Virus record (IMG/VR): IMGVR_UViG_3300032665_000074
Location: 1-41,593 of that record
Source: a virus
Reading direction: 5' to 3' (one strand)
DNA: 41,593 bases
Both the position numbers and the translations under genes were made by a program. The notes beneath the pieces are model-generated. The model was not told the DNA's origin. It did not search any database and was given only the letters and a program-made list of their open reading frames with translations. The first letter of the stretch is position 1; each line of letters starts with the position of its first letter. Below are positions 4,386-35,313 of this stretch, in pieces.

Positions 4386-4946
4386 ATGCTATCTATACAT
4401 CCAGACTTGACAATTCCTTTTCCGGAATCCAGCAATAGGCTTAGTGATTTCAAAGAGAAAGTTGAGGCTGCGTGCCGCACCGCCGAGTTCCTCGGGTTCG
4501 AAGATGCCTTTACAGACGATGATGTGGATACTGCCGAACGTGCAGTACTAGCGTCCGTTTATCCGGAAGAAACTACGCAAAAGGTAGCACTGCGTGCTAC
4601 AGAAGACTTCAAGCCGGCTACCTATTACGCTGCTAAGGCTATTCTTACTGAACATGCGGTACGCGTTGTAGACAACGCCAATCAAATACGTCTGTTAGTT
4701 ACTAATAAACTTCTTCTCGAATCGGACAATCCCGATCCTCGAATCCGCATGCGTGCCCTAGAACTCCTAGGAAAGATCACTGATGTTGGGTTGTTTACGG
4801 AAAAATCTGAGGTCACGGTTACTCACCGCTCTACTGAAGACCTAGTAAATAACATCCGTGCCAAGATCGCCGCTATGCGGGAACCCAAAGACATCACTCC
4901 TACGACAGGACACCTTATTAATGTAGATGAGGAACTTGGTCTGTGA
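4386..4946 (+). CDS. terS: Terminase small subunit
   Basis: A 186-aa protein that would recognise the phage DNA for packaging and hand it to the large subunit. The C-terminal part is diagnostic of a family found in podoviruses: DPRIRMRALELLGKITDVGL, then FTEKSEVTVTHRSTEDLVNN. The N-terminal 100 residues are helical. The ribosome site ahead of the ATG is weak (GCGGAC). The stop codon overlaps the GTG start of the next gene (GTGA), coupling it to the large subunit. Identification rests on this C-terminal pattern plus position directly upstream of terL. Confidence 0.88.
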   Translation: MLSIHPDLTIPFPESSNRLSDFKEKVEAACRTAEFLGFEDAFTDDDVDTAERAVLASVYPEETTQKVALRATEDFKPATYYAAKAILTEHAVRVVDNANQIRLLVTNKLLLESDNPDPRIRMRALELLGKITDVGLFTEKSEVTVTHRSTEDLVNNIRAKIAAMREPKDITPTTGHLINVDEELGL

Positions 4947-6472
4947 GCCTAGTCCTTGACGATGCGGAGTTGGATTTCCTAGCTCAGAACATGCACATAT
5001 TGTCTCCGGAAGAGGCGTCTGAGGTAGAGCAGCTGCTCGATGAACTGCATAAAAGGAGAGAGGCACAAGCGTGCCGCGATGACCTGATCGAATTCTGTAA
5101 GAAGATGCAGCCTGACTATAAGGTTGGTAAGCATCACAGGATGCTGGCGGATGAGTTGATGGCGATCGCCGAAGGGCGTAAAGACCGAATATGTATCAAC
5201 ATGCCCCCTCGTCACGGTAAGTCCCAGCTTACTTCTATCTATTTTCCATCATGGTTTATCGGGAAATACCCGACCAAGAAAATCCTGATGGTGTCACATA
5301 CCTCCGACTTGGCGGTGGACTTTGGTAGAAAAGTGAGGAACATCATTGATTCCGTTGCGTACAAAGAGATATACCCGACAGTCACTTTGGCAGCAGATAG
5401 TAAGTCTGCTGGTCGGTGGAATACTAATTCTGGTGGCGAGTACTTCGCTTGTGGTGTTGGTTCCGCTTTGGCTGGCCGAGGTGCTGACCTCCTTTTGGTT
5501 GACGATCCTCATAACGAGCAAGACATACTTAGTGGCAACCTTGATATATTTGAGCGAGCGTATGAATGGTTTGCGTACGGAGCGCGAACACGACTGATGC
5601 CGGGAGGCCGTGTAGCTATTATTGCTACAAGATGGCACCAAGATGACCTGAGCGGACGAATGATCCGCGATATGACCCAGAGTGAGGAAGCCGATCAATA
5701 CGAGGTCGTTGAGTTTCCAGCTATCTTCAATGAGAACACGCCAGAGGAAGCTCCTCTTTGGCCAGAGTTTTTTGACCTGCCGGCACTTAAACGCACTAAG
5801 GCATCGATGCCGGTATTCCAGTGGAATGCGCAGTATCAGCAGAATCCGACCGGTGAAGAAGCCGCTATCGTTAAGCGAGATTGGTGGAATAAATGGAAAC
5901 TAGAACGACCACCTTCTTGTGAATACGTAATTATGGCGCTTGACGCTGCAGCAGAAACTCACAACCGTGCTGACTTCACGTCTATTACGACGTGGGGCGT
6001 ATTCATGAATGAGGAAACCAACGCATACAACATTATTCTACTAAACGCTATTAAGAAGCGTGTTGAGTTTCCGGAACTTAAGGATCTTGCACAAGAACAG
6101 TACAACGAGTACCAGCCAGATGCGTTTATTGTAGAAAAGAAGAGTGCGGGTACCGCGCTTTACCAAGAGCTTCGACGTACCGGTATGTCAGTACAAGAAT
6201 ATACCCCCCACAGGGGTACCGGAGACAAGATGGCTAGGCTTAACTCCATAGCGGACATTATTAGATCCGGACTTGTGTGGGTGCCTGAGACCCGGTGGGC
6301 TGAAGAAGTTGTAGAAGAACTTGCTGCATTTCCTTTTGCATCCCATGATGACCACGTCGATACGACCACGATGGCGCTGATGCGTTTTAGAAACGGTGGG
6401 TTTGTACGGCTACCTTCTGACGAGCCTGATGATATTTCTTATTTCCGTGCAAAAAAACGCGCATATTATTGA
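4943..6472 (+). CDS. terL: Terminase large subunit (ATPase/nuclease)
   Basis: A 509-aa packaging motor that drives DNA into the prohead through the portal and cuts it. The ATPase domain has a Walker A-like PPRHGKS (residues 88-94) and Walker B LLLVDDPH (183-190). The RNase H-fold nuclease shows the acidic residues in ALDAAAETH (D334), IVEKKSAG (E398) and HDDHVD (469-473). Its length is normal for the family. The start is GTG at 4943, inside the terS stop. Around residues 218-235 the GGRVAIIATRWHQDDLSG motif is typical of this terminase group. Confidence 0.97.
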   Translation: MSLVLDDAELDFLAQNMHILSPEEASEVEQLLDELHKRREAQACRDDLIEFCKKMQPDYKVGKHHRMLADELMAIAEGRKDRICINMPPRHGKSQLTSIYFPSWFIGKYPTKKILMVSHTSDLAVDFGRKVRNIIDSVAYKEIYPTVTLAADSKSAGRWNTNSGGEYFACGVGSALAGRGADLLLVDDPHNEQDILSGNLDIFERAYEWFAYGARTRLMPGGRVAIIATRWHQDDLSGRMIRDMTQSEEADQYEVVEFPAIFNENTPEEAPLWPEFFDLPALKRTKASMPVFQWNAQYQQNPTGEEAAIVKRDWWNKWKLERPPSCEYVIMALDAAAETHNRADFTSITTWGVFMNEETNAYNIILLNAIKKRVEFPELKDLAQEQYNEYQPDAFIVEKKSAGTALYQELRRTGMSVQEYTPHRGTGDKMARLNSIADIIRSGLVWVPETRWAEEVVEELAAFPFASHDDHVDTTTMALMRFRNGGFVRLPSDEPDDISYFRAKKRAYY

Positions 6473-6547: not shown

Positions 6548-7060
6548 ATGCGCGTCAAACGATGTACCGGCTGCAAGAAAGAACTACCGTTAGCTAGTTA
6601 CAACAAAGACAGCCAAGGTAAGACAGGCCATAAACCAAGATGCCGTGAATGCACTAAAAAAGCGGGTAAAAAGTACCGAAAAACCGCATTATATAAGGAA
6701 AAAAGTACCGCAAATGCAGCGAAAAAGCGCGAAAAACGGCGTGCAAATCCCATTAAAAAGTGGGTAGAAATGGCTTATCACAACGCAAAAAGACGCGCAA
6801 AACTTAATAATTTAGAGTTTTCACTGACAAAAGAATGGCTTTACGAGAACATGGCGGCAATCTGCCCCCTATTAGGGACGTTACTGGTGTATAACGGCAG
6901 TAAACCAACCGACGCTAGTGCATCGATCGACAGGAAGGACAGCACTGGAGGGTATACTCCAGATAACTGCCGCGTTATATCGCTACGCGCTAACCGGATA
7001 AAGAACAATGCAACCCAAGAGGAGCTGCAGCGAATAGCTGAGTCTCTACTAAATTATTAA
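6548..7060 (+). CDS. HNH homing endonuclease (zinc-finger type)
   Basis: A 170-aa basic protein. The N-terminal zinc finger uses C6/C9 and C32/C35, a lysine-rich linker follows, and the C-terminal HNH-type nuclease core reads SIDRKDSTGGYTPDNCRVIS (126-145) then LRANRIKNNAT. Such proteins cut DNA at alleles lacking them and spread by recombination. GGAG lies 7 nt ahead of the ATG. It is free-standing between terL and the portal gene; neither neighbour looks split, so no intron is implied. It is one of three homing nucleases in the window. Confidence 0.9.
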   Translation: MRVKRCTGCKKELPLASYNKDSQGKTGHKPRCRECTKKAGKKYRKTALYKEKSTANAAKKREKRRANPIKKWVEMAYHNAKRRAKLNNLEFSLTKEWLYENMAAICPLLGTLLVYNGSKPTDASASIDRKDSTGGYTPDNCRVISLRANRIKNNATQEELQRIAESLLNY

Positions 7061-13661: not shown

Positions 13662-14540
13662 ATGAAAAACGTCATTTACAAAATTCGAAACGTCGTCAAC
13701 GGTAAGTTCTATGTTGGGAGCTCGGTAGATTCACGTAAACGGTTCTGGGCACACCGTAAAGATCTTCGATCAGGAGTTCATGTATGCGTAGCTTTACAAC
13801 GTGCATGGATAAAGTATGGAGAAGACTGCTTTAAATTCGAAGTGATTGAGCAGTACGGAACCAAGGATGAGTTGTTTCCAGCTGAACAGAAGTGGTTAGA
13901 CGAACACTACGGTAAAGAGTATTGCTATAACGTATCACCACACGCCAATGCTCCTATGCGCAATGCTAGTCCAGAACTTCGAGCTAAACACGCACAAACA
14001 ATGCGTGATTACTATTCTCAGAACCCGCATCCTAGGACGGGAGCAGAATGGTCTGAAGAAGATAGAAAAAAATTAAGTGAAGCCAGAGTAGGGAAAACTA
14101 CTGGACCAGATCACTACCGCTACGGAAAAACCATATCAGAAGAAACTCGCAAGAAAATCGGTGACACGCAACGTGGGGTGCCTAAAGGCCCAAGAACATT
14201 CACTCCGGATGGGTTAGCGCGAGCACAAGAAAACATGCGTAGAAACGCGGTAGAACAACAACCCGCAGATTTCCAATCCGTCCTAGCCAAGTTCCCCGAA
14301 GAAATACGTAACCGGTACGACTTCTCCAATGCAGTGTATTCCGGGGCTCTAGTGCGTATAGAAGGCTGTATTTGCCCTAACCATGGTGTATTCTCTCAAT
14401 ATTCAGCGCAGTTCCGTAAAGGCCGCGGGTGCCCACAATGCGGAGCAGAACAACGTGCAGAATCGAAAAGGCAACAGATGCTAAAAGCATGGCAAAATCC
14501 CGAAGAACGGGGCAAAATGATGGAGTCTAGAAACAAATGA
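13662..14540 (+). CDS. GIY-YIG homing endonuclease with NUMOD3 repeats
   Basis: A 292-aa basic protein. The GIY-YIG nuclease core spans residues 1-90: VIYKIRN and KFYVGSS correspond to the two signature halves, with arginines at 25-27 and the catalytic glutamate in AEQKWLD (E75). DNA-binding NUMOD3-like motifs follow (WSEEDRKKLSEARVGK; YGKTISEETRKKIGDTQRG). A C-terminal zinc-binding element has CICPNHG and GCPQCG (236-261). AAAGGAGGT lies ahead of the ATG, and the gene has its own promoter. It sits between the capsid gene and the next structural genes and is a likely mobile insertion. Confidence 0.93.
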   Translation: MKNVIYKIRNVVNGKFYVGSSVDSRKRFWAHRKDLRSGVHVCVALQRAWIKYGEDCFKFEVIEQYGTKDELFPAEQKWLDEHYGKEYCYNVSPHANAPMRNASPELRAKHAQTMRDYYSQNPHPRTGAEWSEEDRKKLSEARVGKTTGPDHYRYGKTISEETRKKIGDTQRGVPKGPRTFTPDGLARAQENMRRNAVEQQPADFQSVLAKFPEEIRNRYDFSNAVYSGALVRIEGCICPNHGVFSQYSAQFRKGRGCPQCGAEQRAESKRQQMLKAWQNPEERGKMMESRNK

Positions 14541-18982: not shown

Positions 18983-19897
18983 GTGAACTACGAAAATATC
19001 TATAACAGCATTCAGGCGTATTCTGAAAATACGGAAGCTCTTTTTGTAGCTAATATTCCTGTATTCATACAGGAAGCGGAAACCCGTATCTATAATTCAG
19101 TACAGATCCCTGCGCTACGTAAAAATTCGATGGGTAGTGTAACGGCTTCAAACCCGTACTTGTCGTTGCCTAGCGATTATCTATCTACGTATTCTTTGGC
19201 TGCTGTGGATACTACGGGTAATTACTATTACCTTCTCAACAAGGATGTAAATTATCTGCGTGAGGCGTACCCAAATTCGAGTCAGACTGGAATCCCTAAG
19301 TACTACGGATTGTTCGGTTCTCAAACAGGTAATATCAACAACTTAAGCGCCATCCTAGCACCTACTCCCGACCAGAATTATTCTGTAGAGCTGCATTATT
19401 TCTACTACCCACCGACTATAGTACAGGGCCAGATTAGCGCACTAGGCGCATTTACAGCCGGATCTCTTTATACAAATGGTGTATATCAGAACGTGCCGCT
19501 TAGCGGGGGTTCAGGGGCTAATGCTTCAGCCGATATTGTCGTTGCAGGTCAGGTAATCACCTCAGTGAGCCTTAAGTTTGGTGGGAATTTTTATGTGGTG
19601 GGTGACATCCTTACCTGTTCCGCGCTTGGTCCTACAGGTACTGGGTTTACAGTGACTGTTAGCGGTATATCTAACTCCACCGGTACAAGCTGGCTCGGTA
19701 ATAATTACGACCCTGTGTTGTTCTACGGTGCTATGCGTGAAGCGGCACTTTTTATGAAACAGGAACAAGATCTGATATCATATTACGAAAGCAAGTTCCA
19801 AGAAGCTCTGCAGCAGTTGAACAGACTTGGAAGCGGGTTAGAGCGTGGTGACGCGTACCGCGACGGGCAGTACAGAATAGGGCAGGTTAAACCGTAA
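18983..19897 (+). CDS. Phage adaptor / tail terminator-type protein
   Basis: A 304-aa protein with a GTG start. The opening helix pair (IPVFIQEAETRIYNSVQIPA), PYLSLPSDYLSTYSLAAVD, and the closing SWLGNNYDPVLFYGAMREAA with FMKQEQDLISYYESKFQEAL match a podovirus neck/adaptor family comparable in position to P22 gp4. A beta-repeat insertion at about residues 155-230 contains NGVYQNVPLSGGSGANASAD and FVVG-type strands, a module often added to virion proteins. The ribosome site is weak. Confidence 0.83.
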   Translation: MNYENIYNSIQAYSENTEALFVANIPVFIQEAETRIYNSVQIPALRKNSMGSVTASNPYLSLPSDYLSTYSLAAVDTTGNYYYLLNKDVNYLREAYPNSSQTGIPKYYGLFGSQTGNINNLSAILAPTPDQNYSVELHYFYYPPTIVQGQISALGAFTAGSLYTNGVYQNVPLSGGSGANASADIVVAGQVITSVSLKFGGNFYVVGDILTCSALGPTGTGFTVTVSGISNSTGTSWLGNNYDPVLFYGAMREAALFMKQEQDLISYYESKFQEALQQLNRLGSGLERGDAYRDGQYRIGQVKP

Positions 19898-20454
19898 TGG
19901 AAAGAACTCGTAAAGCGGCTATGGATAAAGGTGAAGCTAAATACTTCACTGGTAAGGCCTGCCTATACGAACACATAGCTCCTAGACGTACTAAAACCGG
20001 CGAATGTACTATTTGTAGAGCTAACAAAGTTGCTACATGGCGTAAAAATAACCCAGAAGGAGTGAAAAAGCATAATAACAGCCAGTATGCTAAGCATTAC
20101 AGTAAGATTAAAGAAGCCACTAAACGGTATTATTTGGAGAATAAGGAAAAGATACAAGCTAGCATAAGCTCGTATCGCAAAAAAAATCCCCACATTGTTG
20201 CCAAATGTACAGCCGCCCAAAAGGCAAATAGATTAAAAAGAATCCCCGATTGGTTGTCAAAAGACGATCGATGGCTTATAGATGAAGTATACGCTCTAGC
20301 TAGATTAAGGACAAAGGCATTTGGGTTTCAATGGGATGTAGACCACATAGTGCCATTACAAGGAAAAGATGTATCTGGATTGCACGTACCTTGGAATTTA
20401 CAGGTTATACCAGCTTCCGAAAATCGAATTAAATCGAATAAGGTGAATCCATGA
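19897..20454 (+). CDS. HNH homing endonuclease (classical H-N-H)
   Basis: A 185-aa basic protein. The N-terminal zinc-binding part includes CLYEHIAPRRTKTGECTIC (22-40), the middle is a long lysine-rich helix, and the nuclease core is DVDHIVPLQGKDVSGLHVPW (147-166). NLQVIPASENRIKSN follows, giving the H150, N167 and N176 pattern. It is free-standing, joined to the neck gene by TAATG and to the next virion gene by ATGA, so it uses its neighbours' expression. It differs from the HNH at 6548 in both zinc finger and core. Confidence 0.93.
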   Translation: MERTRKAAMDKGEAKYFTGKACLYEHIAPRRTKTGECTICRANKVATWRKNNPEGVKKHNNSQYAKHYSKIKEATKRYYLENKEKIQASISSYRKKNPHIVAKCTAAQKANRLKRIPDWLSKDDRWLIDEVYALARLRTKAFGFQWDVDHIVPLQGKDVSGLHVPWNLQVIPASENRIKSNKVNP

Positions 20455-28640: not shown

Positions 28641-30788
28641 GTGCAACTTCAAAAACTTCAATTTCGTCCGGGTTTAAATCTCGAAGGAACCGACTATTCG
28701 AACGAGGGCGGTTGGAGTTATGGCGATAAGATTAGGTTTCGTTCTGGTTTCCCAGAAAAGATAGGTGGGTGGAGTCAAGTTGTGTCTGCAACCTATAACG
28801 GAGTGTGCCGATCGCTGTGGTCTTGGTTGGCTGGGGATCTAGGAGCCGGCGCTTCTTATCTAGGTGTAGGTACTAATACTAAGTACTATATATTTTCTGG
28901 CGGTACGTACAACGATATAACGCCAATCACCCAGACTTCGACCCTGACAAATCCTTTTGCTACCAACAATGGTAGCCCTATCGTAACTGTAACTGATGGT
29001 ACATACACCCCTAATGTGGGTGATTTTGTAATTTTTTCAGGTGGCACCGCTGTAGGCGGTTTGACTATATCTGGGGAATATCAGGTAGCTAGTTCTGTAT
29101 CTTCTACGCAGTACACCATACAAGCGGCTTCTAACGCTACATCTACGACTACAGGTGGTGGTACGGTAACTGCTCAATACGAATACCCCATAGGCCTTAA
29201 CGTGTATAGCGTAGGTACTGGATGGGGCGCTGGCCCTTGGTCTCGTGGTACTTGGGGCTCTTCCTATGCGACTGGTATCGGGGAACAGCTGCGTCTGTGG
29301 TCTAACGACAACTTTGGTACTGACTTAGTTATATCACCTCGCGGTGGTCCTATTTTCTATTGGGCTGATTCAAGTGGGGTATCTACAAGGTCACAGTCCA
29401 TAACAGCTTTGGCTAACACTACGACAGCACTCACGGACGCATCCACGTTCGGATCAGGAGCTACTTCCATCACGGTATCTTCTACTGCAGCGCCTAACGT
29501 CTATCCGTACATGGTTATAACCGGCACTGGACTTCCTGCCAATACGCAGGTGTCTTCATCGTATGTGACTGGGTCTACCACTGTACCAATTACAAAAACA
29601 ACCACATCAGCCAGTTCGGGTAACTATTCATTTTCCTACGCTGGGGCTTTTGCTCCTGTAGCTACTTATCAGGTCATCACTTCGGCCATTCAGGAATTTG
29701 TTCTTGCGTTCGGATCTAACTCTTACAACCCCAATAATGCGGGAACTGAGTTTAATCCGTTGCTGGTTAGATGGTCAGATCAGGCAAACCCCTACCAATG
29801 GATCCCAATTATCACCAACCAATCTGGTGAATATCAGCTAACTAACGGGTCATACATCCTGTGCTCAAGAGCTACTAGGCAAGAAATTCTTATCTGGACT
29901 GACACCGCGCTGTATTCAATGCAGTATGTAGGTGCGCCCTACGTTTGGGGCTTTCAGATCCTTATGGACAATATTACCTGCATGTCTCCCAACTCTCCGA
30001 TTACGGTTAACAACGCTACGTACTGGATGGGGCGTGACCGGTTCTATATCTACACCGGTAGAGTGGAAGTGCTGCCGTGTACTTTAAAGCAATACATTTT
30101 TGAAGATATCAACTACGACCAAGCCTACCAAGTTTTTTCCGGAACCAATAACGGATTTAACGAAATTTGGTGGTGTTACATAAGTAAAAACAGCGGTGGC
30201 ACCGTTGTAGACAAATACGTCGTATATAACTACTTGGATAGAGTCTGGTACTACGGTACGTGGAGTACTTACAACCCGGTAACGGGTAACTTCGATGCAC
30301 TTAATGGACGATCGGCTTGGATTCAATCTGGTATGCTGCCATATCCCGTAGCTGCTGATTACAATAACAGGCTTCTATACCACGAATCAGGTACGGATGA
30401 TAACGCTACGTCTACTACGTATCCGATCTACGCTTACGCTCAGTCTTCTGACTTTGACATAGGTGACGGTCACAACTTCGGGTTCGTATGGCGCATCCTC
30501 CCAGATATTAATTTCAATGGGTCTACGGTCAACAATCCCTATGTGACGATGACTATTACGCCAAGATACAACTCAGGTACACCGTACGGTGTGGCAGATA
30601 CTCCTCAAGTTATCAGCGCTCAGAACTACACTAACGTATCTGAATACCAAGTTCAGCAATTCACTGGGCAGGTTTACACGCGACTTCGTGGTCGTCAGAT
30701 GTGTTTCAGGATTGAATCTAATAGCATAGGAGCGGCATGGCAGCTTGGAACTCCCCGCATTAGCGTGCGCCCTGATGGCAGAAGGTAA
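28641..30788 (+). CDS. Tail hub / DNA stabilisation protein (P22 gp10-like)
   Basis: A 715-aa protein with a GTG start behind TAGGAG. The opening FRPGLNLEGTDYSNEGGWSY with FRSGFPEKIGGWSQV, the central ALYSMQYVGAPYVWGFQILM, and NNATYWMGRDRFYIYTGRVE with FNEIWWCYISKN match podovirus tail proteins related to P22 gp10. These close the portal-neck channel and support the fibres. Two Ser/Thr-rich beta insertions lie at about residues 100-175 and 250-340. The position after the lysis gene and before internal proteins fits a tail-assembly block. Confidence 0.83.
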   Translation: MQLQKLQFRPGLNLEGTDYSNEGGWSYGDKIRFRSGFPEKIGGWSQVVSATYNGVCRSLWSWLAGDLGAGASYLGVGTNTKYYIFSGGTYNDITPITQTSTLTNPFATNNGSPIVTVTDGTYTPNVGDFVIFSGGTAVGGLTISGEYQVASSVSSTQYTIQAASNATSTTTGGGTVTAQYEYPIGLNVYSVGTGWGAGPWSRGTWGSSYATGIGEQLRLWSNDNFGTDLVISPRGGPIFYWADSSGVSTRSQSITALANTTTALTDASTFGSGATSITVSSTAAPNVYPYMVITGTGLPANTQVSSSYVTGSTTVPITKTTTSASSGNYSFSYAGAFAPVATYQVITSAIQEFVLAFGSNSYNPNNAGTEFNPLLVRWSDQANPYQWIPIITNQSGEYQLTNGSYILCSRATRQEILIWTDTALYSMQYVGAPYVWGFQILMDNITCMSPNSPITVNNATYWMGRDRFYIYTGRVEVLPCTLKQYIFEDINYDQAYQVFSGTNNGFNEIWWCYISKNSGGTVVDKYVVYNYLDRVWYYGTWSTYNPVTGNFDALNGRSAWIQSGMLPYPVAADYNNRLLYHESGTDDNATSTTYPIYAYAQSSDFDIGDGHNFGFVWRILPDINFNGSTVNNPYVTMTITPRYNSGTPYGVADTPQVISAQNYTNVSEYQVQQFTGQVYTRLRGRQMCFRIESNSIGAAWQLGTPRISVRPDGRR

Positions 30789-30790
30789 TC

Positions 30791-31453
30791 ATGACTTCAA
30801 ATATTACCCAGCAAAAGCTGTTATCTCTTAAAGATACTAAAGCACCTAACTTACCTATCCCTCCGGTAGAGTACAGCCAACAGTTTTCAGACCAGCTTAA
30901 CAACGTGCTTAGGTTGTACTTCAACCAGATAGATGCTTTTACTCAGACATTCTCTACGGGAGCCAGTGCTATTTACTTAGGGTTTCCTTATGGTGCTTTT
31001 AGTAGCACAGTTACCCAGACCGCCGTCGCTGCTAACACTCCGCAGCATGTCAATCTTAACAGCACTGATTTCTCCAACGGGGTGAGTCTTAACGCGGCCA
31101 ACGATATAACGGTGCAGTACGCTGGTATATACAACTTTGCGTTTAGTGTGCAGACTACGAATTCAGATACGCAGACCCATGACGTAGACATTTATTTTAG
31201 GAAGAATGGTGTCCCTGTCGCCAACAGCGCTAGTGTGTTTTCAGTGGTTAGTACCCACGGGGGTCAGCCGGGTTATCAGGTCGCAGCGGCTAATTTCTTC
31301 ATAAAGATGTTGCCTACCGACTACTTAGAAATGTATTGGTCTACCAATTCTACTCAGGTTCAGCTTAACTACCTTCCGGCGATTACAACGCCTTTTATCA
31401 GTCCGGGCGCACCCTCGGTAGTGCTTACAGCTAGCTTCGTATCAGCGATGTAA
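30791..31453 (+). CDS. C1q/jelly-roll-like tail protein, 220 aa
   Basis: A short helical N-terminus (residues 1-55) precedes a beta jelly-roll domain. Its signatures are DITVQYAGIYNFAFSVQTTN, VDIYFRKNGVPVANS, and FIKMLPTDYLEMYWSTNSTQ. Trimeric jelly rolls of this kind are common in phage tail and head-surface proteins. It starts 2 nt after the tail hub stop. A receptor- or subunit-binding role is inferred. Confidence 0.8.
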   Translation: MTSNITQQKLLSLKDTKAPNLPIPPVEYSQQFSDQLNNVLRLYFNQIDAFTQTFSTGASAIYLGFPYGAFSSTVTQTAVAANTPQHVNLNSTDFSNGVSLNAANDITVQYAGIYNFAFSVQTTNSDTQTHDVDIYFRKNGVPVANSASVFSVVSTHGGQPGYQVAAANFFIKMLPTDYLEMYWSTNSTQVQLNYLPAITTPFISPGAPSVVLTASFVSAM

Positions 31454-31470
31454 TGTGATAGGATTCCACT

Positions 31471-32274
31471 ATGAATTCCGTTGAAAAACCTAGAGTTACG
31501 TTGAAAGAGTTCAAGGCGGCTATGGCCGACTCCATCACATCGGGTCAGGTCAAACAAATAGATCCGCCACTTGAGCATTACCATACGCCCGGACTGTACG
31601 GGCGTCGTATTTTTGTACCCGGTGGTACAGCGGTTTTAACTAAGGTGCATAAGACGGAACACATCACGATCGCTCTTAAAGGTAGTTGCACTGTAGTAGA
31701 TGAGAAAGGTGTTAAGACAGAAGTTGTGGCTCCATCAGTATTTATCACAAAGCCGGGTACCCGGAGGGCGGTCTACGCTCACGACGATGTCGAATGGATC
31801 ACAGTGCATGCAACCGAGGAACAAGATGTGGAAAAGCTGGAAGCTACACTTGTTTGCGATTCTCAGGAAGAAGTAGACCGCGAGGACTACATGCGAGTGC
31901 TTGTAGAAAATAACACTAACGAGAAGTGGGCACGTAACCTTTCTGAAAATCCTAGAACTTGGTCAGACGATATGGCTGGCGACACCGGGTACTACATCGC
32001 TGATTCTGTGATTGAAGGTAAAGGTGTATTTGCTGATAAGGATTACGACGCTGGTGATTTTATTGGTGTGACTAGATTAGGTGTTATGCGCACGCCCATG
32101 GGAAGGTATACTAACCACAGCATTAATCCTAACTGTGTATTCCGCGCCGAACCCAACCGCATAGTAGCAATAGCTGCTAGAACCATATACGAAGGCGAAG
32201 AGATAACGGTGTGCTACCGCCTAGCCCGCAAAGTAAACATCGAGGCTACTAAGCTTCTGGAGAAATTATCATGA
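31471..32274 (+). CDS. Cupin-SET fusion, putative protein lysine methyltransferase
   Basis: A 267-aa two-domain protein. Residues about 40-115 form a cupin-like barrel (YGRRIFVPGGTAVLTKVHKT; HITIALKGSCTVVDEKG; PGTRRAVYAHDDVEWITVH) with H60/H64 as possible metal ligands. Residues about 175-252 carry the SET core: EGKGVFADKDYDAGDFIGV, then the AdoMet/active-site motif TNHSINPNC (214-222) and EGEEITVCYR (241-250), where SET enzymes place the catalytic tyrosine. SET proteins methylate lysines using AdoMet. Its stop overlaps the next internal-protein gene (ATGA). The target is unknown and may be viral or host. Confidence 0.88.
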   Translation: MNSVEKPRVTLKEFKAAMADSITSGQVKQIDPPLEHYHTPGLYGRRIFVPGGTAVLTKVHKTEHITIALKGSCTVVDEKGVKTEVVAPSVFITKPGTRRAVYAHDDVEWITVHATEEQDVEKLEATLVCDSQEEVDREDYMRVLVENNTNEKWARNLSENPRTWSDDMAGDTGYYIADSVIEGKGVFADKDYDAGDFIGVTRLGVMRTPMGRYTNHSINPNCVFRAEPNRIVAIAARTIYEGEEITVCYRLARKVNIEATKLLEKLS

Positions 32275-33485
32275 GTTTTGTAGATATCGCTGCAGCTATT
32301 GGTGGGGTTGCTCTCGAAGCTGGAGCCAGCGAAGCTGTAGCCGGTGGAATTGGAGCCGTTGGCGCTGGCGCTTTAGGTGGGGCTGGTATGGGCGCAGCCA
32401 CTTCCGCTCTTACTGGTGGGAATGTTGGACAGGGCGCTTTATTTGGTGCTCTCGGTGGAGGACTTACGGGTGGTATCGGTTCCGCTATAGGTGCTGGCGG
32501 TGGCGCTGCTGCCGCATCTGCTACCCCCTCTGCTGCTGGTAGCGTAGCTAACGCTATCGATACTCCAATTAGTAGTTTAACTCCTGATATTACTAGCGAA
32601 CAAATAGCATCTAGCTTTCCCGGTACTTCAGCTCAAGAGTATAACCCTTTGGCTAACATGAACGATGTTCTGGATACAACTGGAAGTCAGACTGGTTCAC
32701 AGGCCGCACAAACAGCACCTGCTTTAACACCTCAACAAACTGCTGCGGCATCACTTAAGAATTCATTCTTTGGTAAAAACCCGTTAATGACCGTAGGTGC
32801 TGGTGGAGTTCTGGGTAGTATTTTAGGTAGGGGCATTTCGCCTTCTCAAGCTACACCTCCCGGCCCTGCATACAACCCGCTGGTTGGGTATAAGTTCAAT
32901 CCTTCTACATTCCAGAAACAACCCGCTGGATATACCGGCTATCTCAATTACGCGCAAGGGTATGCTGATGGTGGGATTGCTTCTCTGCAGAATTCGGATC
33001 CTTCTTTGATGGCTTCTGGTACGGATAAGATGGACTTTATGAGTAGCGGTGCATACCCCATGAGTCAGCAGAAGATGAACTTCTATTCATCACCATCCCA
33101 AATGCCGACAAGTGCTCAACAGGCCATGTCTAGTTATGAGCCCACTACTAACCCACTTACCGGTGAAGAGACTAACCATTTTGCCGAAGGAGGCATTACG
33201 GATCTGGGTGGGTATTCTGACGGTGGTCGTATGATTAAAGGTCCGGGAGATGGAGTATCAGATTCCGTGCCGGCCACTATTGCTGATAAACAGCCTGCTC
33301 GCCTTGCGGATGGGGAGTTCGTGGTGCCGGCGCGTATCGTGTCAGAACTGGGTAATGGTTCTTCGGATGCTGGTGCGCGTAAGCTATACGATATGATGGA
33401 TCGGGTACAAAAGTCTCGTCGCAAGACGACCGGTAAAGGTAAGGTAGCTGTGGATTCCAAAGCAACTAAGGCACTACCCGCATGA
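32271..33485 (+). CDS. Internal virion / ejection-type protein, 404 aa
   Basis: The N-terminal 90 residues are a Gly/Ala-rich hydrophobic stretch (GAVGAGALGGAGMGAATSAL) like those of proteins that enter membranes during DNA ejection. Flexible middle parts contain 'GGI' motifs (YADGGIASLQ, FAEGGITDLGGYSDGGRMIK). A conserved C-terminal motif reads GPGDGVSDSVPATIADKQPA, then RLADGEFVVPARIVSELGNG and SDAGARKLYDMMDRV, a motif frequent in podovirus internal proteins. It overlaps the SET gene before it and the GNAT-like gene after it by 4 nt each. Confidence 0.8.
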   Translation: MSFVDIAAAIGGVALEAGASEAVAGGIGAVGAGALGGAGMGAATSALTGGNVGQGALFGALGGGLTGGIGSAIGAGGGAAAASATPSAAGSVANAIDTPISSLTPDITSEQIASSFPGTSAQEYNPLANMNDVLDTTGSQTGSQAAQTAPALTPQQTAAASLKNSFFGKNPLMTVGAGGVLGSILGRGISPSQATPPGPAYNPLVGYKFNPSTFQKQPAGYTGYLNYAQGYADGGIASLQNSDPSLMASGTDKMDFMSSGAYPMSQQKMNFYSSPSQMPTSAQQAMSSYEPTTNPLTGEETNHFAEGGITDLGGYSDGGRMIKGPGDGVSDSVPATIADKQPARLADGEFVVPARIVSELGNGSSDAGARKLYDMMDRVQKSRRKTTGKGKVAVDSKATKALPA

Positions 33486-33895
33486 CTCTAGTAGTACAGC
33501 CTGTAACTGTGCAGTACGCTGCTCAGGTTTGGCCTTTGGTAGAAGCCTATATCGAGGAAGCTGTTAAGTATTCCAACGGGGATTACACTATAGAGCAGCT
33601 TAAAGCCTTTGTATGCACGGGGCAACAGACCTTGATTGTGGCGGTAGATTCTGATAATAAGATTCAGGGTGCGGCTACTGTTTTTTTCGATAACGGGCCA
33701 AACCACAGAGTGGCCTTTATAACCGCTATTGGCGGTAAAATGATTACAGGGAAGGATACCTTCCTACAATTACGTGCTGTCCTCGGACTGCAGGGCGCTA
33801 CTAAAATCCAAGGAACCGTTAGGCCTTCTATGGCTAGGTTAATTAAGAAACACGGCTTTAGTGAAGTTGCCGTTCTTATGGAGATTAAATTATGA
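33482..33895 (+). CDS. GNAT-like acetyltransferase-fold protein
   Basis: A 137-aa protein with the beta-alpha order of N-acetyltransferases: VQPVTVQYAAQVWPLVEAYI helix, a TLIVAVDSDNKIQGAATVFF strand pair, and an FITAIGGKMI strand. A C-terminal helix-strand (SMARLIKKHGFSEVAVLMEI) resembles 'yxxxGFxxxxxxM'. The classic acetyl-CoA loop (Q/RxxGxG/A) is not clear, so activity is uncertain. Small GNAT-like proteins are recurrent in this position in podoviruses. It is joined by ATGA overlaps to internal-protein genes on both sides. Confidence 0.72.
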   Translation: MTLVVQPVTVQYAAQVWPLVEAYIEEAVKYSNGDYTIEQLKAFVCTGQQTLIVAVDSDNKIQGAATVFFDNGPNHRVAFITAIGGKMITGKDTFLQLRAVLGLQGATKIQGTVRPSMARLIKKHGFSEVAVLMEIKL

Positions 33896-35313
33896 GTGGC
33901 AATCCACCTTCGGCGCAACCTTCGAACACTACATCGCAGGTAACTAATACTACTATCCCTACCTATTTGCAGCCTTATGCCACAGCGATGCTTGGCGGGG
34001 CTATGAATCAGGCGTTTACACAAGACGCTAATGGAAACATTACAGGGACTACTCCATACACGCCGTTTTCGGCTCAATCTCCTAGCACAGTAAACCAAGC
34101 GCTCAGTCAGGCTAGTCAGGATGTAGCGGGTTTCACCCCTCTTCAGCAACAGTCTCAGGCTGGTATTGCAGGACTTCAGCTTCCGGGTCAGTTTGGTCAA
34201 GCCTCTGATATAACTGGACAAGCCGCTCAAGGGTCATTGGGTGTAGCAGGCGGCGCTGCTCCGGGCCTTACTGGTGGTGCTCTTGGTTATGGGGCGCAAG
34301 GCGCTGGGTACGGCGCTATGGGGGCGGGTGTTGGTGCTCAGGCTTTAGGTTCACAGAACCAGCTGATTAACCAGATCCAAGATCCTACGACGATGCAGAA
34401 CTTGATGAGCACGTTCATGGATTACAACCTCCCGGCGCAGCAGCAGTTACTTGCTCAGCAGACGGGTATTCAGGGCGCTCAGGAACAATCAGCAGCTACA
34501 TCATCCGGGGCTTTCGGTGGATCTCGTGAGGCGTTAGCCAACGCTCTTAACCAACAGGCGGGTAACATCGCCCAGTCTAATTTGGTAGGTAATGCGTACA
34601 ACTCAGCGTATACAGACGCTGTTAATGCACTTACTCAGAACGTAGGTCAAAACATCCAACGTCAGGGGCTTGGTATCCAAGGTGCTCAGACAGGTCTGGC
34701 CGGCGCTCAAACAGGTCTTCAAGGTATCGGACAGGGTATCAATGCTCAGCAACTAGGGCTTCAGGGATATGGTCAGGCAGGTACTGAGGCTACTAACCTT
34801 GCAAATATCGGGCAGAACGCACTTACGGCTCAAGAAGGGATTTACGGACTGCAGGCTCAGACCGGTGGAACTCAGCAGCAACAGCAGCAGAACATTATTA
34901 ATCAGGCTATGACTGATTACTCTACTGCACAGCAGTACCCGTACCAGCAGTATTCGTTCCTTAGCGATCTTCTTCACGGCTTGCCGGTATCGTCTACGAC
35001 TTCGCAGAATTACACGGCTGCTCCTAACGCTGCGTCTACAACAGCGGGTCTTGGTATTGCAGGTCTGGGTCTTTCAAATGCGATGTCTGATGTACGCACA
35101 AAGCAGAACATTCAACCGGTTGGCCGGTTGAAGAACGGTATTACTCTATTCGAGTTTAACTACAAGCCTGAGTTTGGCGATCCTTCAATTAGGTACCGCG
35201 GTGTTATGGCTCAGGAAGTTGAGCGGGTTATTCCGGATGCAGTGGGTGTACTCGATAACGGATACAAGTACGTTAATTACGACATGGTTGGCACTCGGAT
35301 GGAGGCTGTATGA
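33892..35313 (+). CDS. Gln/Gly-rich internal protein with S74 chaperone domain
   Basis: A 473-aa protein. Residues 1-390 are Gly/Gln/Ala-rich with imperfect repeats (IQGAQTGLAGAQTGLQGIGQ) and long helices, like ejection proteins. The C-terminus is an intramolecular chaperone (peptidase S74): SDVRTKQNIQPV (S399, K404), LFEFNYKPEFGD, YRGVMAQEVERVIPDAVGVL, YKYVNYDMV. In fibre proteins this domain trimerises the shaft and cuts itself off at the Ser of SDxRxK. Here it is linked to an internal-type body, and the usual Ser-Lys dyad is present. It overlaps both neighbours by 4 nt. Confidence 0.85.
   Translation: MSGNPPSAQPSNTTSQVTNTTIPTYLQPYATAMLGGAMNQAFTQDANGNITGTTPYTPFSAQSPSTVNQALSQASQDVAGFTPLQQQSQAGIAGLQLPGQFGQASDITGQAAQGSLGVAGGAAPGLTGGALGYGAQGAGYGAMGAGVGAQALGSQNQLINQIQDPTTMQNLMSTFMDYNLPAQQQLLAQQTGIQGAQEQSAATSSGAFGGSREALANALNQQAGNIAQSNLVGNAYNSAYTDAVNALTQNVGQNIQRQGLGIQGAQTGLAGAQTGLQGIGQGINAQQLGLQGYGQAGTEATNLANIGQNALTAQEGIYGLQAQTGGTQQQQQQNIINQAMTDYSTAQQYPYQQYSFLSDLLHGLPVSSTTSQNYTAAPNAASTTAGLGIAGLGLSNAMSDVRTKQNIQPVGRLKNGITLFEFNYKPEFGDPSIRYRGVMAQEVERVIPDAVGVLDNGYKYVNYDMVGTRMEAV

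Follow-up and report, generated by a model that had tools for sequence, protein, structure and literature searches.

A cupin-fused SET domain is an optional cassette beside the DNA-ejection genes of bacterial viruses

Introduction

SET enzymes are best known for the methylation of histones in eukaryotes. Among solved structures, the SET domain of MLL1/KMT2A is the best match in both sequence and fold to the viral protein described here, and the two have a common core of GxG, NHSxxPN and ExTxxY motifs. However, the viral domain has no SET-I of normal size, no pre-SET and no Cys-rich post-SET, and a C-terminal helix stands at its end instead. A second close relative is vSET of PBCV-1 (A612L; PDB 1n3j, 3kma), likewise a small viral SET, which matches in fold (E 2e-6) and in profile (1e-8). 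vSET is a stand-alone H3K27 histone methyltransferase of an algal virus, whereas the domain described here is fused to a cupin and belongs to a bacterial virus, whose host has no such histones. It also differs from vSET by a family-specific R-T-x-x-G-R-Y-x-N-H block and by the near absence of SET-I.

In bacteriophages, a 'SET domain protein (ORF62)' has been named in passing for Stenotrophomonas phage Ps15 (PMC9025141). Beyond this mention, we found no description of the function of a phage SET protein in the open-licence literature. The closest described family is phrog_34170 (PHROGs v4), which has the identical cupin-SET architecture without structural difference and carries no functional annotation. 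The same cupin domain is found in phrog_12032 and phrog_24280, which bear the names 'short tail fiber protein' and 'tail fiber adhesin'; Bbp23 of Bordetella phage BPP-1 and a protein of Thalassomonas phage BA3 are among their members. These cupins differ in that they end in a short C-terminal tail without SET. In BA3-type phages the cupin likewise lies before an ejection gene, and the gene that it overlaps in BPP-1 is Bbp24, for a GNAT acetyltransferase, and not a SET gene. In phage P22, the same slot between the tail needle and gp7 is taken by gp14 (DUF2824, phrog_651), which is unrelated to the cupin; the candidate identity of the cupin with gp14 was rejected (hhalign probability 0.3%, different Pfam family).

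Here we analysed a cupin-SET gene in a stretch of 41,593 nucleotides (the window) from a short-tailed bacterial virus, IMG/VR virus record IMGVR_UViG_3300032665_000074, together with its relatives in other bacterial viruses.

Results

The features of the locus are collected in Table 1. The window ORF encodes a cupin fused to a SET core. Against Pfam SET (PF00856) the protein scored 41.6 bits (cut-off 22.4, E 1.9e-10), and its relatives passed the cut-off too; N215-H-S-I-N-P-N-C222 and E243-E-I-T-V-C-Y249, the motifs on which the original prediction of a SET core was based, are both present. The N-terminal cupin barrel that it had also proposed was sub-threshold in Pfam (Cupin_2, 19 bits, cut-off 27.2, E 0.0011), but was clear by PHROG profiles and by predicted fold. 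The N-terminal half matched the cupin families phrog_12032 (7e-33) and phrog_24280 (2e-30), the C-terminal part matched phrog_28741, and phrog_34170 gave the full-length match (6.1e-43, residues 26-256). Structure prediction, which had been suggested as a check, gave a confident AlphaFold2 model of the whole protein (built with 45 IMG/VR relatives; pLDDT 87.9), in which residues 34-114 form a barrel and 120-158 a helical linker, followed by SET from 174 and a helix at the C-terminus. In a Foldseek comparison with solved structures, the two halves matched cupins (3d82, 3lag, TM1459 variants) and SET enzymes (MLL1, PBCV-1 vSET); in profile comparison, the cupin half matched TM1459 at 0.002. The SET module modelled alone reached a pLDDT of 93.4 and a pTM of 0.86, and all of the solved structures listed as its matches were SET methyltransferases (MLL1, vSET, PRC2, SETD8).

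Table 1. Features of the cupin-SET gene and of the genes around it in the window.
Feature	Position	Strand	Support
Virion structural protein, P22 gp10-like tail/head-closure position	28641..30788	+	phrog_3287 3.5e-53; order compared with P22
Weak BclA_C (TNF/C1q-like) match in tail-needle position, putative needle	30791..31453	+	Pfam 5e-4, below cut-off
Putative Shine-Dalgarno-like AGGA	31460..31463	+	7 nt 5' of ATG; read off the sequence
Cupin-SET fusion ORF	31471..32274	+	267 aa, ATG start; Pfam SET 1.9e-10; phrog_34170 6e-43, residues 26-256
Cupin barrel, residues 34-114	31570..31812	+	AF2 model, Foldseek (3d82, 3lag, TM1459), family alignment; metal-ligand positions vary
Helical linker, residues 120-158	31828..31944	+	AF2 model; comparison with stand-alone SET genes
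SET domain core (residues 174-249), SET-I insert nearly absent	31990..32217	+	Pfam, AF2, Foldseek
GKG, residues 183-185, predicted AdoMet-binding GxG motif	32017..32025	+	Both glycines invariant, 52/52 relatives
NHS, residues 215-217, predicted AdoMet/catalytic motif	32113..32121	+	Asn and His invariant, 52/52 relatives
EEITVCY, residues 243-249, predicted catalytic Tyr249	32197..32217	+	E244 and Y249 invariant, 52/52 relatives
ATGA overlap with next ORF	32271..32274	+	Translational coupling; 4 or 13 bp overlap in 31/44 relatives having a downstream ORF
Ejection-type N-terminus, Lys/Arg-rich C-terminus	32271..33485	+	Without family match
GNAT-like ORF, putative acetyltransferase	33482..33895	+	phrog_1249 0.0041; L001 has a clear GNAT (Pfam 2.7e-8) at the equivalent position
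DNA-ejection-protein family ORF with C-terminal Peptidase_S74	33892..35313	+	phrog_4287 1.6e-19; Pfam S74 1e-9

For the conservation analysis we used 52 non-redundant relatives (<90% identity) gathered by a cupin pattern rather than a SET pattern. S179, G183, G185, T208, G211, R212, N215, H216, E244 and Y249 were invariant in all of them, and N221 was kept in 98%. From general knowledge of SET structures, we take GxG and Asn-His to be the AdoMet motifs and Y249 to be the catalytic tyrosine. Because the relatives were found with the cupin pattern and nevertheless all keep the SET residues, a chance resemblance to SET is excluded. A separate SET search of viral contigs returned at least 599 stretches, at least 573 of which were confirmed; its seed contains the NH motif, and motif conservation in that search was therefore not used as evidence. 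The median dN/dS was 0.11 for the SET part and 0.08 for the cupin in greedy disjoint pairs, of which 57 were listed, some being near copies of others so that the independent pairs number fewer than 57. Both parts of the protein are under purifying selection. The intact motifs suggest that the protein is an AdoMet-dependent enzyme.

The domain is built on a reduced scaffold. From the SET-N match to the NHS block there are about 10 residues in the window family, compared to 44 in MLL1 (SET-I), and the full SET-I insert of canonical eukaryotic histone SET enzymes of the MLL/EZH2 type is absent. A family-specific block, R-I-x-x-x-R-T-x-x-G-R-Y-T-N-H, stands where SET-I would be, and in 176 of 183 members GxG and R[YF]xNH are spaced 26 residues apart. 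The cupin-SET proteins have no post-SET cysteines. To our knowledge there is no smaller SET scaffold, and the cupin-SET with almost no SET-I would be the smallest. The second part of the linker, residues 132-158 (D-Y...L.E.G), followed by S-E-N before SET, is kept in stand-alone SET genes, which indicates that these pre-SET helices are part of the SET module. A conserved GCxGG insert just ahead of the catalytic strand occurs in L025, L034 and many fused members and is missing from the window protein.

The cupin-pattern search of IMG/VR returned 172 relatives, and in the best 80 of the 172, which were fetched, the SET was present as well; because the ranking used the full protein, the SET fraction among them is not a frequency. 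Two isolated phages, Rhodoferax phage P26218 and Pseudoalteromonas phage PH1, encode a cupin-SET, gp30 and gp49 respectively, annotated as 'hypothetical protein', and the genome paper of P26218 does not mention the SET protein. The PH1 and zth2-2 proteins matched phrog_34170 at 3e-155 and 1e-84, respectively. Phage SET proteins had earlier been regarded as uncommon; this one is no isolated oddity and belongs to a widespread family already clustered, with unknown function, as phrog_34170. Hundreds of related bacterial viruses carry a putative SET enzyme, with its predicted active-site residues intact, beside DNA-injection genes. We also noted SET-like ORFs without annotation in cyanophages and a pelagiphage (NC_015290, P-SSM7; NC_020855, P-RSM6; MT375529, Kolga).

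The gene follows the P22 gp10-like gene, with a possible needle gene between the two in the window, and precedes the ejection genes. The late operon and the coupling to ejection genes, as first proposed, are borne out by the P22-like gene order around the ORF and by a gp7-like gene downstream in 45 of the 49 loci checked, where the downstream protein starts like 'MSGIATAIVGSAVIGG'. Of the 44 relatives measured, 31 had an overlap of 4 or 13 bp with the downstream gene, and neighbours of the relatives matched PHROG 'DNA ejection' families (1.7e-98, 5e-39) and Pfam P22_gp7 (0.0025). The window itself is an exception, in that the immediate next protein (32271-33485) is of another, unclassified kind and the match to a DNA-ejection family comes two genes on (33892-35313). 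The C-terminus of 32271-33485 is Lys/Arg-rich and resembles a histone tail (RVQKSRRKTTGKGKVAVDSKATKALPA), with a similar tail in L001 and, in part, in L002; it is possible that this tail is a lineage-specific substrate of SET or GNAT. The protein at 33892-35313 carries at its C-terminus a Peptidase_S74 domain (an intramolecular chaperone), which is unusual for an ejection protein.

GNAT-like ORFs recur beside the cupin and ejection genes (window 33482-33895; L001 8093-8545; BPP-1 bbp24, L259 4483-4947), and the operon of the window lineage would therefore hold two types of protein-modifying enzyme. A GNAT gene as a substitute for SET beside the cupin was considered and rejected: GNAT genes were found in 2 of 48 neighbours of SET-bearing cupins and in 3 of 32 neighbours of SET-less ones, so that the two do not exclude each other. 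Elsewhere in the window, ORFs resembling HNH or GIY-YIG homing endonucleases by eye lie between late genes (6548-7060, 13662-14540, 19897-20454), and the terminase large subunit (4943-6472) is closest to that of pelagiphage HTVC023P (47%).

The same cupin was found without SET in podoviruses of Vibrio, Alteromonas, Shewanella, Dickeya, Acinetobacter and others, including Bbp23 of BPP-1; in these SET-less proteins a short coil tail forms the C-terminus. A tree of 116 cupins, on which L142, truncated at a contig end, was wrongly scored as SET-less, requires at least 11 changes between SET present and SET absent, and 5 of these changes are forced by well supported branches. The cassette is seen directly in the close pair L119 and L120: their cupins share 92% identity as far as residue 156, beyond which L119 has SET and L120 a tail of 28 residues, while the flanking genes have 77-89% DNA identity. 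In L179, L198 and L217 a separate SET gene touches the cupin gene; in L163 and L172 the SET gene lies three genes beyond the cupin, ahead of a portal-like gene; and in L177 it lies ahead of a gp7-like gene, without a detectable cupin. What is constant across fused and stand-alone SET is the late morphogenesis and ejection operon. SET is thus an optional cassette on a cupin that is often found without it.

The original prediction had described the cupin as a barrel for a metal or a small ligand. In the family alignment, the canonical His/Glu metal ligands of cupin motifs 1 and 2 were not conserved (W60/Y64 in L014, Q64 in L012; motif 2 His replaced by K/R), and because these positions vary across the family a metal or small-ligand enzyme is unlikely. 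Cupin-only proteins occupy the identical place in the operon, pointing to a barrel with an assembly or virion role. A virion role would agree with the gene position and with the inherited annotation, in which the label 'short tail fiber' in PHROGs and GenBank is annotation only. No solved virion structure holding the cupin, BPP-1 Bbp23 included, was found in the PDB by sequence.

In the SET-bearing phages, no lysine was conserved at the 60% level in the first, second or third downstream ejection protein, the alignments of the second and third being weak. A target lysine common to the gp20-like or gp16-like proteins was likewise rejected at 60% conservation, in a test that is weak because of these poor alignments. 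Lysine is altogether absent from the gp7-like proteins of L077 and L191, and the adjacent gp7-like protein is therefore ruled out as a universal lysine substrate. Comparison of the neighbours in L119 (SET) and L120 (SET-less) gave no clear signal of compensating lysine changes or of lysine loss. The earlier proposal that a virion, ejected or host protein is methylated is still plausible, except for the gp7-like protein as a universal lysine target. This leaves as candidate substrates the cupin itself, a host protein, or one of the gp20-like, gp16-like, portal, coat and needle proteins, whose sites would then be degenerate.

Discussion

For phrog_34170, the present analysis adds the identities of the two domains, the behaviour of SET as a cassette and the linkage to the ejection operon, and it shows a predicted SET methyltransferase on a reduced scaffold, in an architecture and a setting that are new. 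As to function, we tentatively prefer a late protein-lysine methyltransferase on a non-metal cupin that modifies virion or ejection proteins during assembly. The cupin would be a non-metal assembly or virion barrel of the podovirus tail and DNA-ejection module, and the C-terminal SET, an optional cassette, would be a protein-lysine methyltransferase dependent on AdoMet. The cupin would hold SET, or be co-expressed with it, at the assembly site of the tail and the ejection proteins, where SET may then methylate lysines of the virion or ejection proteins being made at this stage. In this scheme we infer the enzymatic activity, lysine as the target residue, the location of the cupin in the virion, and the timing. 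That SET is encoded by a late gene and can do without the fusion favours action during morphogenesis.

It is also conceivable, though somewhat unlikely, that the cupin-SET protein is packaged and enters the cell with the ejection proteins, and early in infection methylates a host nucleoid, transcription or defence protein. There is a precedent in vSET of PBCV-1, where H3K27 methylation rises upon infection and host transcription is repressed (PMC3089700). Such a role would agree with the constant linkage to ejection genes and with the lack of a conserved lysine in the phage ejection proteins. We keep it in consideration mainly because of the patchy distribution of SET, since gains and losses of this kind (at least 11 changes, 5 well supported) are typical of an accessory, host-facing function. 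However, stand-alone SET genes in the late operon need no virion anchor. Because the gene is late and the stand-alone SET stays in the late operon without such an anchor, we give more weight to modification during assembly than to an injected effector. That a large undescribed phage group injects a cupin-docked SET lysine methyltransferase with its genome, and thereby modifies a nucleoid, transcription or defence protein of the host, we regard as clearly unlikely.

A further alternative is that SET methylates its own cupin or oligomer and so tunes tail assembly. The fusion keeps enzyme and cupin together, and the cupins have several lysines; however, separate SET genes exist, in L177 even without a detectable cupin, and no cupin lysine was invariant in the 52-member alignment, which makes this self-modification improbable. 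It is very improbable that SET is a catalytically dead fold, merely a structural knob or oligomerisation domain ending the cupin, because, although SET-I has almost disappeared from the substrate groove (about 10 against 44 residues in MLL1) and other cupins have a short coil tail at their end, the AdoMet and catalytic residues never vary while overall identity drops to about 30%, and N-H, GxG and Tyr would not be retained for a purely structural role.

The presence of a SET domain with preserved, predicted catalytic residues in the DNA-ejection operon of hundreds of phages, some of them cultured, makes phage-driven protein methylation testable. The pair of nearly identical cupins with and without SET shows that the enzyme is an add-on module, and its benefit to the phage can therefore be tested by simple removal.
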